From the IMG/VR virus record IMGVR_UViG_3300012920_000182, positions 1 to 29,055 of that record: a stretch of DNA of 29,055 nt; one strand, given 5' to 3'. The stretch is from a virus. The notes under the pieces are model-generated. The model was not told the origin of the DNA, did not search any database, and worked only from the letters and a program-made list of their open reading frames with translations. Shown one piece after another: positions 23,419 to 29,055 of the stretch (the stretch's first letter is position 1; each line of letters starts with the position of its first letter). A program made the position numbers and the translations under genes.

Positions 23419-23610
23419 ATGCAGGAAAATCTTTTTTCTAGCCAAGAGCCAGAACCTCAAGAAGAAGCGTTGGTCTGGACTCGAGAAAAGTTAATCGACT
23501 TCTTGTCTCAATTCGGGAAGTGCATTAAGGGGAAGTCTGGCAAGATCTTGCCTCTTGAGAAGTTCGTGCAGATGGTAGATCAAGCAATAGAAAGCGAAAG
23601 GCGAAAATGA
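23419..23610 (+). CDS. Small protein between methyltransferase and GNGPS genes
   Basis: A 63-aa protein from the ATG at 23419, 4 nt after the methyltransferase stop; longer starts run inside the methyltransferase gene. Glu/Gln-rich N-terminus, then a helix Trp-Thr-Arg-Glu-Lys-Leu-Ile-Asp-Phe-Leu-Ser-Gln and a basic segment Lys-Cys-Ile-Lys-Gly-Lys-Ser-Gly-Lys. Not recognised. Its stop overlaps the next ATG (ATGA), so it is coupled to it. Confidence 0.6.
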   Translation: MQENLFSSQEPEPQEEALVWTREKLIDFLSQFGKCIKGKSGKILPLEKFVQMVDQAIESERRK

Positions 23611-24143
23611 GTACGTGTCACCTGATAGGGAATGGAAGTTCGAAGTCACTTTATGAGTACAAGAACGGCGATAACACTTTCATGTGCAATATGCCTGACC
23701 CACACATCAACACTCTTGGGGTTTTTGTGAGAGACCGTGCTGTAGCGAACCTCTACATCGACGGTACATTTTCGGCAGGCAAAATTTTCTGCGATGAATC
23801 AGTTGCCTCGTATTTGAAAATGGGCGGGTATAGGGGCCACGTCTCGCCGTACCTTTCCCAGGGAGCAAATATTGGAATCCAGGCAATCCAGTATCTTGCC
23901 GTTCACTACAACACAGTAGAGCTGTGGGGCTTCGACTCTCTGTACTCTGGATCTCTCCAGTCTGAGATGTCAAAGTACTTGCCCTTCTCCCCAGAGGATG
24001 AGCATGACATTGAATCCTGGGCCTCCGGCTGGCACAGAGATGTGCTAAAGCAATTTCCAGACAATGTGTTTATACTCAACAAACCATCCCTTCAGGGATT
24101 CGAAAAAATTTATTTGAAAGAAATGCTAAATTTGCAGCATTAA
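23607..24143 (+). CDS. GNGPS-type (DUF115-like) protein, copy 1
   Basis: A 178-aa protein beginning Cys-His-Leu-Ile-Gly-Asn-Gly-Ser-Ser (residues 4-12), a nucleotide-binding-type loop after the first beta strand. It then has an Ile-Asp-Gly-Thr segment, Gly-Ala-Asn-Ile-Gly-Ile-Gln-Ala-Ile-Gln-Tyr-Leu-Ala at 86-98 and Leu-Trp-Gly-Phe-Asp-Ser-Leu-Tyr at 106-113. The same landmarks stand at the same residue numbers in the downstream gene, so the two are paralogues. The pattern resembles the DUF115/MptE-like fold linked with sugar or pterin metabolism; function in phages is unknown. It is coupled upstream by ATGA. The C-terminus (Trp-Ala-Ser-Gly-Trp-His-Arg) is shorter than in the second copy. Confidence 0.72.
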   Translation: MSTCHLIGNGSSKSLYEYKNGDNTFMCNMPDPHINTLGVFVRDRAVANLYIDGTFSAGKIFCDESVASYLKMGGYRGHVSPYLSQGANIGIQAIQYLAVHYNTVELWGFDSLYSGSLQSEMSKYLPFSPEDEHDIESWASGWHRDVLKQFPDNVFILNKPSLQGFEKIYLKEMLNLQH

Positions 24144-24159: not shown

Positions 24160-24894
24160 ATGGCAGTGTGTCACATAATTGGTAACGGACCTTCGGCAAA
24201 ATATTTCAACGGATGGCCAGGCGATATCTTCGGCTGCAACATTCCTCACTTCGATCTGCCGTATCAAGCAACTGCCGCGATTGACATTGAAATCCCATAT
24301 TGGATCAAGCAAACGGGATATGTCCCGAACTACCCAATCCTCTGCCCGGAAACAGTGTACGACCACGTGCAGGAACACAACCTGCCCGGCATATGGCTTC
24401 CAGTCCTCCCGCTTTCGACCAATACTGGAGCAGCACTCGGAGCCTACTTGGCGGACCAATATGAGGAAATCCATTTGTGGGGCGTAGACAGCCTGTGGAG
24501 GCTTGGCACAGTCAACTCGGTCACAGACACCCATCATCGCGCGTACCCCGTCAGAGCGGCTACATCCGGCGTTCTGTGGCGAATCAATTGGGCCGAGAAC
24601 GTAGCCCCCAAAACAAACGTCATCTGCCATATGCCTAGAGGGGCAATCTGCGAAACCCCACTCGCCGGCGTGACCTACTCGCGAACGGATATGCCTGACG
24701 ACCCACCAACGCCGCTCGACAAACCAGCACTTGTCGCAAAGCAAGAAGATGAATACAAATGGGTCACAGAATTCATCGTCGAAGAAGATGGCGCTAAGTT
24801 GAGTATCCACTATGGTGACGCAGAAAGAATCAAAGCCCGGCGAAAAGAAATCAAATATCAAAACACAAGCCCGGAGCAAAACACCACCTCATGA
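24160..24894 (+). CDS. GNGPS-type (DUF115-like) protein, copy 2
   Basis: A 244-aa paralogue of the preceding gene: Cys-His-Ile-Ile-Gly-Asn-Gly-Pro-Ser at 4-12, Ala-Ile-Asp-Ile-Glu near 40-44, Thr-Asn-Thr-Gly-Ala-Ala-Leu-Gly-Ala-Tyr-Leu-Ala at 87-98 and Leu-Trp-Gly-Val-Asp-Ser-Leu-Trp at 106-113. It has an additional C-terminal 80 residues rich in Pro, Asp, Glu and Lys. A GGAGG site 8 nt before the ATG gives a strong ribosome-binding site. By analogy with DUF115 it may use an activated sugar or nucleotide (inference). The final ATGA overlaps the start of the next gene. Confidence 0.72.
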   Translation: MAVCHIIGNGPSAKYFNGWPGDIFGCNIPHFDLPYQATAAIDIEIPYWIKQTGYVPNYPILCPETVYDHVQEHNLPGIWLPVLPLSTNTGAALGAYLADQYEEIHLWGVDSLWRLGTVNSVTDTHHRAYPVRAATSGVLWRINWAENVAPKTNVICHMPRGAICETPLAGVTYSRTDMPDDPPTPLDKPALVAKQEDEYKWVTEFIVEEDGAKLSIHYGDAERIKARRKEIKYQNTSPEQNTTS

Positions 24895-25376
24895 AAAAGC
24901 CTAGATTTTCAACCGAAGATCTCGACTACGAGTACTCAGACCTGTTCTGGCAAGAGAACAAGGAATACTCCGCAGTGGCAACGGTCGCCATAGTGGTGCT
25001 CTGCAAAAGACTTGTCGAGGATGCCGGCGAACTCAAAAAGGCACTCATGGCTTCCTCATACGCATTCCACGTAGAAGACGGATCCGTCGCCAGGGAAATA
25101 CCAAACTTCGCCTGTGGTATCCAACTCCCCGAACTCGACGAACACGCAAACTCAAACCACAAAATCAACAAAGTCAAAGGCATCTACGAAGCACTCATCC
25201 CATACGCACTCTTCCACTCGCATGGGGTCCAAGAAGTTCTCGTATACCAAGACACACAACAAATCGAAGCAATACACGAACTCAAGCAAAAAGGCTATGG
25301 GGCTGTCGCTGACTTCCTCTTCTCATGGTGGCCCGAAGACGACGACGACGATGAAGATGGCTCAATCACTGCATAG
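24891..25376 (+). CDS. Acidic protein, end of methyltransferase operon, unknown
   Basis: A 161-aa protein, not recognised. A helical first half contains a stretch Ser-Ala-Val-Ala-Thr-Val-Ala-Ile-Val-Val-Leu that is either a buried helix or weakly membrane-seeking. It is followed by a central alpha/beta part (Ile-Tyr-Glu-Ala-Leu-Ile-Pro-Tyr-Ala-Leu-Phe-His-Ser-His-Gly) and an acidic tail with seven consecutive Asp/Glu residues. The start overlaps the preceding stop (ATGA). Codon use in the second half is markedly rich in C at third positions compared with the genes upstream. Confidence 0.6.
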   Translation: MKKPRFSTEDLDYEYSDLFWQENKEYSAVATVAIVVLCKRLVEDAGELKKALMASSYAFHVEDGSVAREIPNFACGIQLPELDEHANSNHKINKVKGIYEALIPYALFHSHGVQEVLVYQDTQQIEAIHELKQKGYGAVADFLFSWWPEDDDDDEDGSITA

Positions 25377-25380
25377 AGCG

Positions 25381-25500
25381 CGGTATATTTTCGGCATATA
25401 AACTTTTTCAGTTTGAAGTGACACCCTAGCCCTGGGAGCTTGTTAGGGCGATGTTAGGGTCGATGTGGATAACTTGTGGATAAGCCAGGCATTCGCTCAA
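25381..25500. other. Putative replication origin: AT-rich stretch and DnaA boxes
   Basis: 25381-25420 is AT-rich (TATATTTT, CATATAAAC, TTTTTCAG) and could unwind. GTTAGGG at 25442 and 25453 and GTGGATAA at 25465 and 25476 follow in 11-bp steps. The last two are inside perfect TGTGGATAA boxes (25464-25472 and 25475-25483), the reverse complement of the E. coli high-affinity DnaA site TTATCCACA. No gene covers this stretch. Together with the iteron-like palindromes at 25595 onward it fits a theta origin of a plasmid-like replicon. Confidence 0.65.
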
Positions 25501-25594
25501 GTTTGCATCCGGTCTTGCCGATTATGGTACTGTTCCCACTGTTAGACCGATTCCGTCCCCGTACCCGTACCGAGACCGAATCGACCTAACGACC

Positions 25595-25659
25595 GCCGGA
25601 AGTTCCGGCATTCAATCCCGCCGGAAGTTCCGGCATTCAATCCCGCCGGAAGTTCCGGC
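25595..25659. repeat. Three 15-bp palindromes with 25-bp period (operator/iteron array)
   Basis: GCCGGAAGTTCCGGC occurs at 25595-25609, 25620-25634 and 25645-25659, identical in all three and separated by the same 10-bp spacer ATTCAATCCC. Each is a perfect 7+1+7 dyad. The third lies between a -35-like TTCAAT (25636-25641) and a -10-like CATAAT (25659-25664). A dimeric DNA-binding protein is the expected ligand. Confidence 0.9.
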
Positions 25660-25664
25660 ATAAT
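25636..25664 (+). promoter_or_regulatory. Promoter overlapped by the third palindrome
   Basis: TTCAAT at 25636-25641 and CATAAT at 25659-25664 are separated by exactly 17 bp, and that spacer is filled by the third palindrome. Transcription would begin near 25671, very close to the GAGG site (25670-25673) of the gene at 25682, so either the leader is minimal or the true start differs slightly. Occupied operators would block this promoter. Confidence 0.6.
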
Positions 25665-25681
25665 CTAATGAGGTTCTTACC

Positions 25682-26176
25682 ATGTCCGAATTTACTTACT
25701 CCACCGAATCACTCGCTAATTCCGTCCGAATCGCCGCTGGCAAGATTGGCAAGATCGAACCTACGGCGTTCACCAAGAAGGATCGAACCGCGCACGGCCG
25801 TGCTATCTTGCTGCAGTGCTTCACCGCCGCCGCCGAAGTCAAGAAGGAACGCCGTGGCGCTATGGCCTTGCAAGACATCACCTTCGCCGAAGGTAACGTC
25901 GCCGCTGGCTTGGCTATCGCAGAAGACGTCGTTCACTATGTCCACACGATGCAAGGTATGATTCTTCCACTCTTGGCATTCTTGGAGACGGAGTACGCCC
26001 GCGACCAATCTGAATGGATTCGCGGACACACGGAAGAAGGCCAACCGCAGTACTTCACCATGCGAGACGCCGCACGCGTTGTTGCTCTCTCTCTCCCCGG
26101 AGCCAAGAAGGTACAGTCGGCTGCAGACCGTAAACTGGCCGATGCGATCGCATCCGCCGCCAAGCCTACGGCCTAA
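25682..26176 (+). CDS. Protein downstream of the operator array, unknown
   Basis: A 164-aa, mostly helical protein. A GAGG site lies 8 nt before the ATG. Features: a basic segment Lys-Lys-Asp-Arg-Thr-Ala-His-Gly-Arg-Ala, an Ala-rich helix with Lys-Lys-Glu-Arg-Arg, a hydrophobic helix Gly-Met-Ile-Leu-Pro-Leu-Leu-Ala-Phe-Leu-Glu, and Ala/Lys-rich C-terminus. No helix-turn-helix or Rep motif is evident to me. Its position behind three identical palindromes that cover its promoter, beside DnaA boxes, makes a replication or copy-control factor, or an autorepressor, the first hypotheses. A 10-bp stem follows the gene. Third positions are richer in GC than in the structural genes. Confidence 0.72.
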   Translation: MSEFTYSTESLANSVRIAAGKIGKIEPTAFTKKDRTAHGRAILLQCFTAAAEVKKERRGAMALQDITFAEGNVAAGLAIAEDVVHYVHTMQGMILPLLAFLETEYARDQSEWIRGHTEEGQPQYFTMRDAARVVALSLPGAKKVQSAADRKLADAIASAAKPTA

Positions 26177-26199
26177 GCCTAGGCCAGCCGCCAAGCCAA

Positions 26200-26226
26200 G
26201 CCCGCCGGATACGTCCGGCGGGCTTA
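26200..26226 (+). terminator. Hairpin after the 164-aa gene
   Basis: A perfect 10-bp GCCCGCCGGA/TCCGGCGGGC stem with a TACG loop (26200-26223) lies 24 nt past the stop codon. Only TTAT follows instead of a T run, so termination may be weak or factor-assisted. Confidence 0.6.
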
Positions 26227-26246
26227 TCGCGTTGCGCCCGAATTTC

Positions 26247-26545
26247 CGCGCCCGTACCCGTACCCTGCGCCGATATTCGCACGCCCGCCCGCGCATGATT
26301 TGCGCCCGCCCGAATCTATCCGCCCGCGCATGATTTGCGCCCGCGCATCCGCCCGCGCATCCGCCCGCGCCCGATTCGGAGACATCCCAGGAAAATCAAG
26401 CTCGTGCCTGGGTGCGCGCCCGCCCGCCCGCACGACCACGCATACCCCAGGTTTACCGCGCGCGAAGAGAGGGGGGATTTTGACCCTCTAGGTTTACCGC
26501 GCCCGAAGAACGGGGGGGATTTGCACAAGCTCTTTTCTGGATCCG
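26247..26545. repeat. GC-rich tandem repeats without a gene
   Basis: A 25-bp unit with the core GCGCATGATTTGCGC (itself an inverted repeat) occurs at 26285-26309 and 26320-26344, a 35-bp period, followed by two CATCCGCCCGCGC-type units to 26371. A second pair, AGGTTTACCGCGC plus CGAAGA plus a G6-7 ATTT run, starts at 26449 and 26490, 41 bp apart. GCACAAGCTC then occurs twice after 26522. Open frames here are biased Arg/Pro/Ala strings on several frames at once, typical of GC-rich non-coding DNA, so none is called. Confidence 0.65.
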
Positions 26546-26839
26546 CACAAGCTCGCGAAGCCTACCGGCATCGTTGCGCCTTCTCTTTGACAACTTCATA
26601 AGTGCCCAGCTTCGTCGCGCGAATTGTCTCGCGCAAGCTCGCGGTATCGTCGCGCCCAACACGCGCCCTCGGCCATTCCCGTATCCGTACCGGAACCGCC
26701 ACTAGGGGGATTGCATTGGATCCGTAGCCGATACCGTCGCCACATGGTGAGGGGCACAAGTGCAGAATTTCCTCGCCCGCATGTCGGTAGACAGTTGCCG
26801 AGCGGTTGGGGGGATTTTCCGTCGCGACCATCCGCGAAG

Positions 26840-27445
26840 ACCTACAGGTGTATTGCACACCTGCTCGGTCTGCTCCGGACTCTAATGAGAGCGTTCTAGA
26901 GGTGTCCCCTCTATGGCGTGCGGTTACACTCAGCGAACGGGGACGCAAGCCTACCGTGTACGCATTCGTGCCTACGCCGTAGCCCAGCATCCTTAGCATT
27001 CGTCTGCGGCGGGTTATTGTCCAGCTTTACGGCTGGGACGTATGGTCATAGTCATTGACCCGCTACGCCTGCACAACGCCTAGTGCCCTATCCCGTGTCG
27101 GGTGGCACTTCCTGGATACGTTGCGCCGTGACTCTCTCCCAAGTGGGGGGAATAGCCAAGTCCCTCCAGGGAACAACTGGGTCAATCGTCCAATCGAACC
27201 ATAGACCCAGGCAAGGTGGCAACCGTTTACACAGTGTCATTGTGTAGATTGGTATTGCCATCCCACCCGGCTAGGTGTAACTAACCACCGCAGGGGCGGG
27301 CCGCGTACGAAGAAAGCCGTCACAGGATTGGATTGTGGCCAGCTCGTGGTGCGTAGGCGTTCTATCAACATCAACCTATCTAGCAGTCCCATGCGGATTG
27401 CTATTTACGCCCCTGGGGGATTTGTTTCTCTCAGGGGTTTTTGCA
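26840..27445 (+). ncRNA. Candidate large structured RNA
   Basis: No convincing frame crosses this stretch, but stable hairpins are dense. 26845-26863 has a 7-bp CAGGTGT/ACACCTG stem, and 26897-26913 TAGAGG/CCTCTA. 27009-27063 has GCGGGT/ACCCGC enclosing GTCCAGC/GCTGGGAC at 27019-27039. 27082-27109 has AGTGCC/GGCACT enclosing CCCG/CGGG with a TGT loop. 27177-27210 has a 7-bp CTGGGTC/GACCCAG stem, and 27217-27260 TGGCAA/TTGCCA enclosing ACACA/TGTGT. An intrinsic terminator ends it at 27442. The 5' end is unknown and may lie near 26600. No match to tmRNA, RNase P or tRNA was seen. Strand is inferred from the terminator. Confidence 0.45.
27410..27442 (+). terminator. Intrinsic terminator closing the structured region
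   Basis: CCCCTG at 27410-27415 pairs with CAGGGG at 27432-27437, followed by five T (27438-27442). The loop contains one of the recurrent G-run ATTT motifs, which offers an alternative pairing with the CCCC. Confidence 0.7.
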
Positions 27446-27562
27446 TTCTCTCTGTGTGCCAATTATCTGGCACTTTCTTGATCCTTCCATATTGGGGGGA
27501 TTTGTCAAATATACCGGGCATTTGTTTGCCCCAGGTTTCTAACTAGAAAAGAGGCAGCTTTT
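27443..27562 (+). promoter_or_regulatory. Leader of the 112-aa gene
   Basis: Contains a G6 ATTTG motif (27493 area), a small GGGCA/TGCCC hairpin around 27520-27536 and a GAGG-type ribosome-binding site (27549-27554) 8 nt before the ATG at 27563. The hairpin is followed by a short T stretch and might attenuate, but no clean promoter pair was found. Confidence 0.4.
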
Positions 27563-27901
27563 ATGAGTACTAACACTCCCTACAGAACCATTGTTTCATG
27601 GTTTCGTGAACGCGGCATGAAGGTCATTTCTCCCTCATGGTGCAGTGACGGATGGTGTGCAGGTGACGAGCCAGGCATGCTGATTGTGAGCACTGAACAA
27701 AAGAGTCAGCTTAGTCCAGTGGTGGCCGACACTGTTGCCTACTACGAGAACAGTGAGGGATCGGACGAGTTCCAGCGGTTCCTTTTCGTGCACGGTCTCT
27801 GGTTCGAGTGGAACAACGCGGCAACCATCTGTATCTACGAGGACACTGCGCCTTGTGAGGATGTGGATGTGGCAGCTCTTCAGGACGGCCTGGTGAACTG
27901 A
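27563..27901 (+). CDS. 112-aa orphan protein
   Basis: A soluble, acidic 112-aa protein with no recognised family. It starts with a Trp-Phe-Arg-Glu-Arg-Gly-Met helix, has two cysteines in Trp-Cys-Ser-Asp-Gly-Trp-Cys, a central strand Met-Leu-Ile-Val-Ser and a later aromatic stretch Gly-Leu-Trp-Phe-Glu-Trp. The good ribosome-binding site and the downstream C6/G6 hairpin mark a single-gene unit. Its location in a cluster of small non-conserved plus-strand genes suits a host-takeover or accessory role (inference). Confidence 0.7.
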   Translation: MSTNTPYRTIVSWFRERGMKVISPSWCSDGWCAGDEPGMLIVSTEQKSQLSPVVADTVAYYENSEGSDEFQRFLFVHGLWFEWNNAATICIYEDTAPCEDVDVAALQDGLVN

Positions 27902-27929
27902 CCCCCCCAAAATTCGACGTCGATTGTCG

Positions 27930-27950
27930 CCCCCCATTCGGGGGGATTTG
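27930..27950 (+). terminator. C6/G6 hairpin between small genes
   Basis: CCCCCC (27930-27935), loop ATTC and GGGGGG (27940-27945) form a short, very stable stem followed by ATTTGT, a poor T tract. Same design as the fuller terminators at 28311 and 29024. Confidence 0.6.
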
Positions 27951-27980
27951 TCTGGGCTAAGAAAATGAAAGGACAGCCCC

Positions 27981-28277
27981 ATGTGTGAACAAACTACTGA
28001 ACTCCCAAGAAATCCCAACTCCTGGCGACAGGACAACGCCACCTATCGGTACTGGCAAACGGACCCTAAGACGAAGCGGGAATACTGCATCTGGTCCAGG
28101 TTTGACAAGGTGCGAGGCAAGTGGGTTTGCGTCATTGACCACGACGGTACGTACCATCTCGGCATCTCAGACAACAGTGCCGATGCGTTCCTTCAATCAT
28201 TGTGGAACCGCGACCTTGCTGATGCGAGAGCAGAAGCAGAGTGGAAGCGATTCTGGGAAGTCGCCCCAGGTTCCTGA
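27981..28277 (+). CDS. 98-aa orphan protein
   Basis: A 98-aa protein rich in Trp, Arg and Asp. AAAGGA (27968-27973) lies 7 nt before the ATG, in a leader nearly identical to that of the gene at 28362. The centre (Tyr-Cys-Ile-Trp-Ser-Arg-Phe-Asp-Lys-Val-Arg-Gly-Lys-Trp-Val-Cys-Val-Ile-Asp-His) looks like an antiparallel beta hairpin. A helix Asp-Ala-Phe-Leu-Gln-Ser-Leu-Trp and a charged end follow. No family recognised. Overlapping frames on both strands are shadows. Confidence 0.7.
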   Translation: MCEQTTELPRNPNSWRQDNATYRYWQTDPKTKREYCIWSRFDKVRGKWVCVIDHDGTYHLGISDNSADAFLQSLWNRDLADARAEAEWKRFWEVAPGS

Positions 28278-28310
28278 TACTGGCAACCGTTGCCACCTGG
28301 ATTGATTCGT

Positions 28311-28337
28311 CCCCCCAAAATAGGGGGGTTTTTTATT
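28311..28337 (+). terminator. Intrinsic terminator with C6/G6 stem
   Basis: CCCCCC (28311-28316), loop AAAATA, GGGGGG (28323-28328) and TTTTTTATT. A textbook rho-independent terminator between two small genes. Confidence 0.92.
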
Positions 28338-28361
28338 GGCTTCTAGAAGAAAGGACAAGCC

Positions 28362-28754
28362 ATGGCTAGAAAAAATACAAGTAAACCACTATGGGCAATG
28401 CGTGCTGATCCACAAGTGATGAGCCAAACCATCCCGTGCACCGCCATTCCTGGATCTCGCTCTCCCTCAAAGATGCAGCAGACATTGAACTCATGCAGCT
28501 CGAAAACCGCGAGCATCCGGAAGCTGCAGCGTCGTATGCACATGATGCTGAGGGTGCTGCGTTCTCGGTGTCAGTCGAGAATGATCCGCAACATGATCGG
28601 TATCCGGATGGAACTGTGTAAGGATCTCGTGCCCTACACAGACAAGAAACTTTCTCGGTGGTGCAAAGACACGATGCCGGTGATCGAAAAGGCTGCTGAG
28701 GACTGCCGCCTGGAAATCACAATCGACGAAAGCGGATTGCCCAAAGTCTGGTAA
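28362..28754 (+). CDS. Small gene with conflicting reading frames
   Basis: The frame from the ATG at 28362 (AAAGGA 6 nt upstream, leader shared with the gene at 27981) is open for 130 codons. Its middle, residues about 32-85, is an improbable Arg/Ser/Met-rich string, while the first 30 and last 48 residues look ordinary. In the -1 frame the middle (28409-28621) reads as a normal acidic protein. Either the gene carries a compensating pair of frameshifts (sequence error, decay or recoding) or two short genes overlap, with a second start at ATG 28610. The C-terminal part (Met-Pro-Val-Ile-Glu-Lys-Ala-Ala-Glu-Asp-Cys) is plausible as a helix. Unknown function. Confidence 0.45.
   Translation: MARKNTSKPLWAMRADPQVMSQTIPCTAIPGSRSPSKMQQTLNSCSSKTASIRKLQRRMHMMLRVLRSRCQSRMIRNMIGIRMELCKDLVPYTDKKLSRWCKDTMPVIEKAAEDCRLEITIDESGLPKVW
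28436..28621 (+). CDS. Alternative -1 frame within the previous gene
   Basis: From a GTG at 28436 the frame gives 61 aa with natural composition: Ser-Trp-Ile-Ser-Leu-Ser-Leu-Lys-Asp-Ala-Ala-Asp-Ile-Glu-Leu, then Ala-Ala-Ser-Tyr-Ala-His-Asp-Ala-Glu and a Tyr-Pro-Asp-Gly end. The frame is open from 28409 but lacks an ATG and has no clear ribosome-binding site, so it is more likely the middle of a gene begun at 28362 than a free-standing gene. Confidence 0.4.
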   Translation: MHRHSWISLSLKDAADIELMQLENREHPEAAASYAHDAEGAAFSVSVENDPQHDRYPDGTV

Positions 28755-28799
28755 CATCGGTTGCGCATCTTGGGGGGGATTGCAACTCAGGAGAAACCC

Positions 28800-28997
28800 A
28801 TGAGGTTTATCAAACTGACTCTGTACAGATTGCTCCATGTAGCTTTTACTGGTGCAACTCTTTTCTTCATGCTGGCGGCAACACTCCAATCGGATAAGCC
28901 GACCACGCAGGAAGTCGTACAAAATTTTGCAGGGTTCTTAGCAGGATTGCTGGGTTCCTGGATCCTTGTTCTGAGCGAGCAAAGATTCTTGCACTGA
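28800..28997 (+). CDS. 65-aa two-span membrane protein
   Basis: Start chosen at the ATG at 28800 because AGGAGA at 28789-28794 is at ideal distance; longer frames add residues without similarity. The product has a basic N-terminus (Met-Arg-Phe-Ile-Lys), a first hydrophobic span at about 12-30 and a second at about 42-58 (Phe-Ala-Gly-Phe-Leu-Ala-Gly-Leu-Leu-Gly-Ser-Trp-Ile-Leu-Val-Leu). It is small, hairpin-like and compatible with a holin, superinfection-exclusion or other membrane-acting phage protein; none can be chosen. It ends 27 nt before a terminator. Confidence 0.68.
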   Translation: MRFIKLTLYRLLHVAFTGATLFFMLAATLQSDKPTTQEVVQNFAGFLAGLLGSWILVLSEQRFLH

Positions 28998-29023
28998 CCT
29001 GCAAAAATTGTTTTGTGTTTCGA

Positions 29024-29048
29024 CCCCCCAGGTGTTGGGGGGTTTTTT
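29024..29048 (+). terminator. Intrinsic terminator with C6A/TG6 stem
   Basis: CCCCCCA (29024-29030), loop GGTGT, TGGGGGG (29036-29042) and six T. Strong rho-independent terminator after the membrane-protein gene. Confidence 0.93.
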
Positions 29049-29055
29049 CGTTTCA

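Follow-up and report, generated by a model that had tools for sequence, protein, structure and literature searches.

The segment from 26600 to 27445 of the viral record IMGVR_UViG_3300012920_000182 is, judging by sequence, probably non-coding, structured and transcribed. We give about even chances to the reading that it specifies an orphan structured RNA of the phage, noncoding, approximately 700 to 850 nt long and ending at a terminator. Its description as a candidate structured RNA is supported, and a giant ornate RNA of the GOLLD or ROOL kind is possible. The record derives from an uncultivated virus and was analysed over its whole length of 29,055 nt, which is referred to here as the window. 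The features that define the region and its setting are as follows.

25464-25483, minus strand: two perfect DnaA boxes (TTATCCACA) whose starts are separated by 11 bp (context)
26230-27545, no strand assigned: non-coding stretch between a 164-aa ORF (25682-26176) and a 112-aa ORF (27563-27901), from codon-usage scoring
26600-27445, plus strand: candidate large structured noncoding RNA; the 3' end is the terminator, the 5' end is uncertain (about 26450 to 26740)
27409-27445, plus strand: near-perfect intrinsic terminator closing the candidate RNA (z -5.5 on the plus strand)
27456-27480, plus strand: second, weaker intrinsic terminator (terminator scan)

Genomic context and absence of genes

The window encodes a portal protein (PF04860), a capsid protein (PF05065) and a large terminase that resembles annotated terminases. 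When the terminase was compared with those of named phages, every match was below 60% identity, the best being approximately 26%. One further protein is read as the tape measure; its ORF runs off the left end, and the record is therefore a fragment. Within IMG/VR, the window is most closely related to two short contigs, L002 and L003, whose terminase is 82% identical, and both end just short of the candidate RNA region. No Pfam or PHROG family was matched by the proteins neighboring the region (25682-26176, 27563-27901, 27981-28277, 28362-28754 and 28761-28997). Searching viral contigs with the 27563-27901 protein, the 25682-26176 protein or a concatenate of four neighbors as bait yielded no relatives, and the protein at 24160 retrieved, besides L002, distant relatives only. 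The proteins at 23607-24143 and 24160-24894 are paralogous, start with M..CH(L/I)xGNG(P/S)S and have no Pfam or PHROG match; L002 likewise carries two copies of this type (993-1727 and 1734-2345).

Coding potential was evaluated for ORFs of at least 50 aa, with a codon model derived from the genes of the window itself. All 14 such ORFs in 26224-27546 scored as non-coding, between -0.20 and -0.76 bits/codon, which bears out the preliminary description of the region as holding no credible gene. For reference, clearly coding genes scored from -0.03 to +0.36 and antisense shadow ORFs mostly at about -0.15, and every ORF inside 26230-27545 fell below even the shadow ORFs. Four short plus-strand ORFs to the right of the region scored from -0.14 to +0.06 bits/codon, so the weakly supported reading of these as genes relies mainly on their position and spacing. 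The G+C content of the region is 0.57 to 0.63, against approximately 0.48 for the remainder of the window, and any folding test must therefore control for composition.

To the left, three direct repeats of 25 bp (CCGCCGGAAGTTCCGGCATTCAATC) come after the tandem DnaA boxes, at 25593-25667, and boxes and repeats together likely represent a replication origin. A perfect hairpin with a 12-bp stem follows the 164-aa ORF at 26198-26225, and C-rich repeats, including CCGCCCGCGCATGATTTGCGCCCGC twice, occupy 26278-26376.

Folding in excess of shuffled sequences

Folding z-scores were calculated against dinucleotide-shuffled sequences, which control for composition. The plus strand of 26600-27446 folded to -353.3 kcal/mol, compared with -316.6 +/- 7.1 kcal/mol for the shuffles (n = 50), corresponding to a z of -5.2, with none of the 50 as low; the minus strand gave -4.2. 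For 26740-27446, the values were -5.8 and -4.0 on the plus and minus strands, respectively. Folding beyond dinucleotide shuffles, one of the features expected of a structured noncoding RNA, was thus observed for 26600-27446, and the claim that the region is dense in hairpins was confirmed by this excess as well as by approximately 10 helices with a mean pair probability of at least 0.8, which persisted when the 5' end was moved. Coding control windows of the same length mostly gave z-scores of -0.1 to -2.8, with two at about -5 from 12 shuffles each. In local 200-nt windows on the plus strand, z-scores were around zero or higher immediately to the left of 26600 and to the right of 27600, indicating that the limits of 26600 and 27445 are about right.

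The structural elements predicted within the region, all on the plus strand, are listed below.

26764-26818, plus strand: hairpin (26764-26780/26802-26818) with an inner stem (26784-26790/26795-26801), containing one copy of GGGGGGATT
26838-26917, plus strand: two hairpins, 26838-26871 (pair probability 0.98-0.99) and 26893-26917
26940-26993, plus strand: long imperfect hairpin (26940-26946/26987-26993 and 26949-26964/26969-26984)
27008-27064, plus strand: hairpin (27008-27019/27053-27064) with an inner stem (27021-27026/27031-27036)
27097-27271, plus strand: best-defined domain, a closed multi-branch structure with a 9-bp closing helix (27097-27105/27263-27271) and arms 27109-27172, 27177-27210 and 27215-27262
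27381-27403, plus strand: 9-bp hairpin with loop CAUGC (pair probability 0.98-0.99)

The helices that did not depend on the choice of 5' end were those at 26838-26871, 26893-26917, 26940-26993, 27008-27064, 27381-27403 and, in the terminator, 27409-27438, together with the 27097-27271 domain. The latter had a minimum free energy of -75.7 kcal/mol and a z of -4.1 on the plus strand (0 of 200 shuffles as good) and -2.6 on the minus strand. The segment 26740-26819 gave -2.35 on the plus strand and +0.17 on the minus strand, and 26600-26739, 26932-27064 and 27284-27403 were singly unremarkable on the plus strand. Two long-range helices, 26742-26763/27078-27098 and 26602-26607/26752-26757, are mutually exclusive and vary with the 5' end chosen. 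Because of these two alternative foldings in the 5' half, the 5' end and the overall architecture are unsettled. The sequence AGGTGGCAACCGTT at 27214-27227 is complementary at 13 of 14 positions to 28285-28298, just past the stop codon of a 98-aa ORF; this may be due to chance, and it would permit RNA-RNA pairing.

Terminators and probable direction of transcription

Of 13 terminator-like sites, where 3.5 were expected, the one at 27409-27445 scored highest, in agreement with the earlier proposal of a closing terminator. Both this terminator and that at 27456 lie on the plus strand only, and no plus-strand terminator was found inside the candidate RNA region. It is difficult to account for the terminators in another way, as the 1.2 kb upstream contains no plus-strand gene. 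When the closing terminator was left out of 26600-27446, z-scores were -3.5 on the plus strand and -3.45 on the minus strand, i.e., both strands were equally over-structured, and the direction of the RNA consequently rests on the terminators. The share of G-U pairs pointed in the same direction (14 to 15% in the plus-strand fold versus 8 to 10% in the minus-strand fold) but lay within the spread of control windows (0.06 to 0.21). No sigma-70-like promoter was found in 25300-29055.

Almost all non-coding gaps contain the recurrent motif GGGGGG(A/T)TT, always on the plus strand; allowing at most one mismatch, the window has 15 matches compared with 6.0 expected. Between 26471 and 29045, it is found at 26471, 26513, 26704, 26808, 27145, 27414, 27494, 27940, 28323, 28773 and 29037. 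Some copies make up the 3' arm of a terminator, and others have no C-run partner close by. The motif may serve this phage in regulation or transcription.

Search for homologues

No relative of the region was detected by BLASTN against phages or plasmids, where the single 34-nt match was due to chance, or against 50 records of terminase relatives. Nor was one found in 264 loci (searched also by nhmmer with its filters disabled), in 19 bacterial genomes that encode related terminases, or in 392 and 398 bacterial genomes of two phyla. A 31-nt match in one bacterial genome sits inside an ORF and was rejected as chance. Scanning IMG/VR for the 15-mer GACGTATGGTCATAG gave eight matches, all by chance, and TCCCATGCGGATTGC gave 60, the best of which falls in coding sequence and was dismissed. 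A 29-mer scan of genome contigs gave no match, and when a covariance model built from 27097-27271 as its single sequence was run against 44 records and approximately 1.5 Mb of loci, it produced no convincing match. Six more distant terminase relatives were checked for ORF-poor stretches over most of each record; the best, L107:5133-6243, proved by ORF listing and inspection to be a run of small genes. The searched collections may leave out very near records, and the absence of homologues is therefore of limited weight.

Interpretation and alternative explanations

We propose that the plus strand of 26600-27445 would give rise to an independent noncoding transcript of about 700 to 850 nt, folding into several independent hairpin domains and one closed multi-branch domain and ending at the tandem intrinsic terminators. 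Its most likely role would be that of a phage-specific structured RNA in the infected host, presumably acting in trans as a scaffold or by sequestering, like GOLLD or ROOL. Two terminators at the end and none inside make a single large RNA the simplest interpretation, and an mRNA leader is less likely because these terminators separate the RNA from the next gene. Most of the helices predicted with confidence, however, are hairpins of local range, the long-range helices are mutually exclusive alternatives that vary with the assumed 5' end, and stretches such as 27284-27403 are no better than shuffles, all of which would suit several small elements side by side (a hairpin-rich untranslated leader, small RNAs or attenuators). 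We regard such an arrangement as clearly unlikely, as the region has no plus-strand terminator within it and the 175-nt domain was closed and stable in all foldings.

The main rival, unlikely yet serious in view of the over-structured opposite strand and the nearby DnaA-box origin, is a palindrome-rich control region for replication or packaging that extends from the origin at 25.4 kb. In that case the hairpins would function at the DNA level or as protein-binding sites, with the terminators serving only to insulate transcription. The equal structure of both strands once the terminator is removed fits this explanation, as do the DnaA boxes, 25-bp repeats and C-rich repeats to the left and the G6 runs that fill the non-coding gaps. 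The origin-like repeats, however, lie 0.2 to 1.3 kb off and end before 26600, the region contains no iterated repeats except the G6ATT motif, and the one-strand terminator pair at its end implies transcription through it. Decayed coding or foreign DNA, whose folding would be a by-product of repeats and the high G+C content, is very improbable, considering that dinucleotide shuffles control for composition and that no similar DNA was found.

Comparison with known RNAs

To our knowledge, very few noncoding RNAs of more than 600 nt from phages are known. Those that are, GOLLD and ROOL, form unexpected cage-like structures and have no known function. A further unrelated class would mean that phages repeatedly invent such large RNAs. 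The candidate is currently one sequence, making it a lead rather than a finding, and for that reason its interest is moderate. That it constitutes a new, unrelated ornate class of about 850 nt without counterpart in Rfam or known phages, possibly an RNA-only particle like GOLLD or ROOL, seems to us quite improbable.

A role in replication control had been suggested from the nearby origin. The primer RNA II of ColE1 is likewise a structured noncoding RNA of several hundred nucleotides with G-runs and an origin nearby in the replicon. The two perfect DnaA boxes agree with the suggestion, but the putative origin lies approximately 1.1 kb upstream and not at the 3' end of the candidate, which ends at an intrinsic terminator. 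This layout does not fit a ColE1-type primer, whose 3' part enters the origin, and the idea of replication control is weak.

With Rfam, there was no match at the gathering cut-off, and the check proposed at the outset for GOLLD, ROOL, HEARO, group I introns and RNase P came back empty even at E <= 10. A permissive search returned weak chance matches only (RT-13, 21 bits versus a cut-off of 69). Membership of these five families is excluded at the sensitivity of Rfam. ARAGORN detected no tRNA genes (0) in the 29-kb window, a genome fragment. The initial likening to GOLLD and ROOL as giant structured RNAs thus holds insofar as the candidate is large, non-coding, terminator-ended and, on single-sequence evidence, structured; it does not extend to an Rfam match or a tRNA setting. 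GOLLD, which is encoded by phages and often exceeds 800 nt, is a large multi-domain noncoding RNA whose function is not known; ROOL is large, structured and noncoding and comes from phages and prophages; and both often occur near tRNA islands in phages or prophages (PMC12286853). Without an Rfam match or tRNAs in the window, the candidate is nevertheless like GOLLD in size, phage origin and possession of several domains. While it differs from ROOL in having no Rfam match, tRNA island or homologous set found, it is similar in being a large structured phage RNA.
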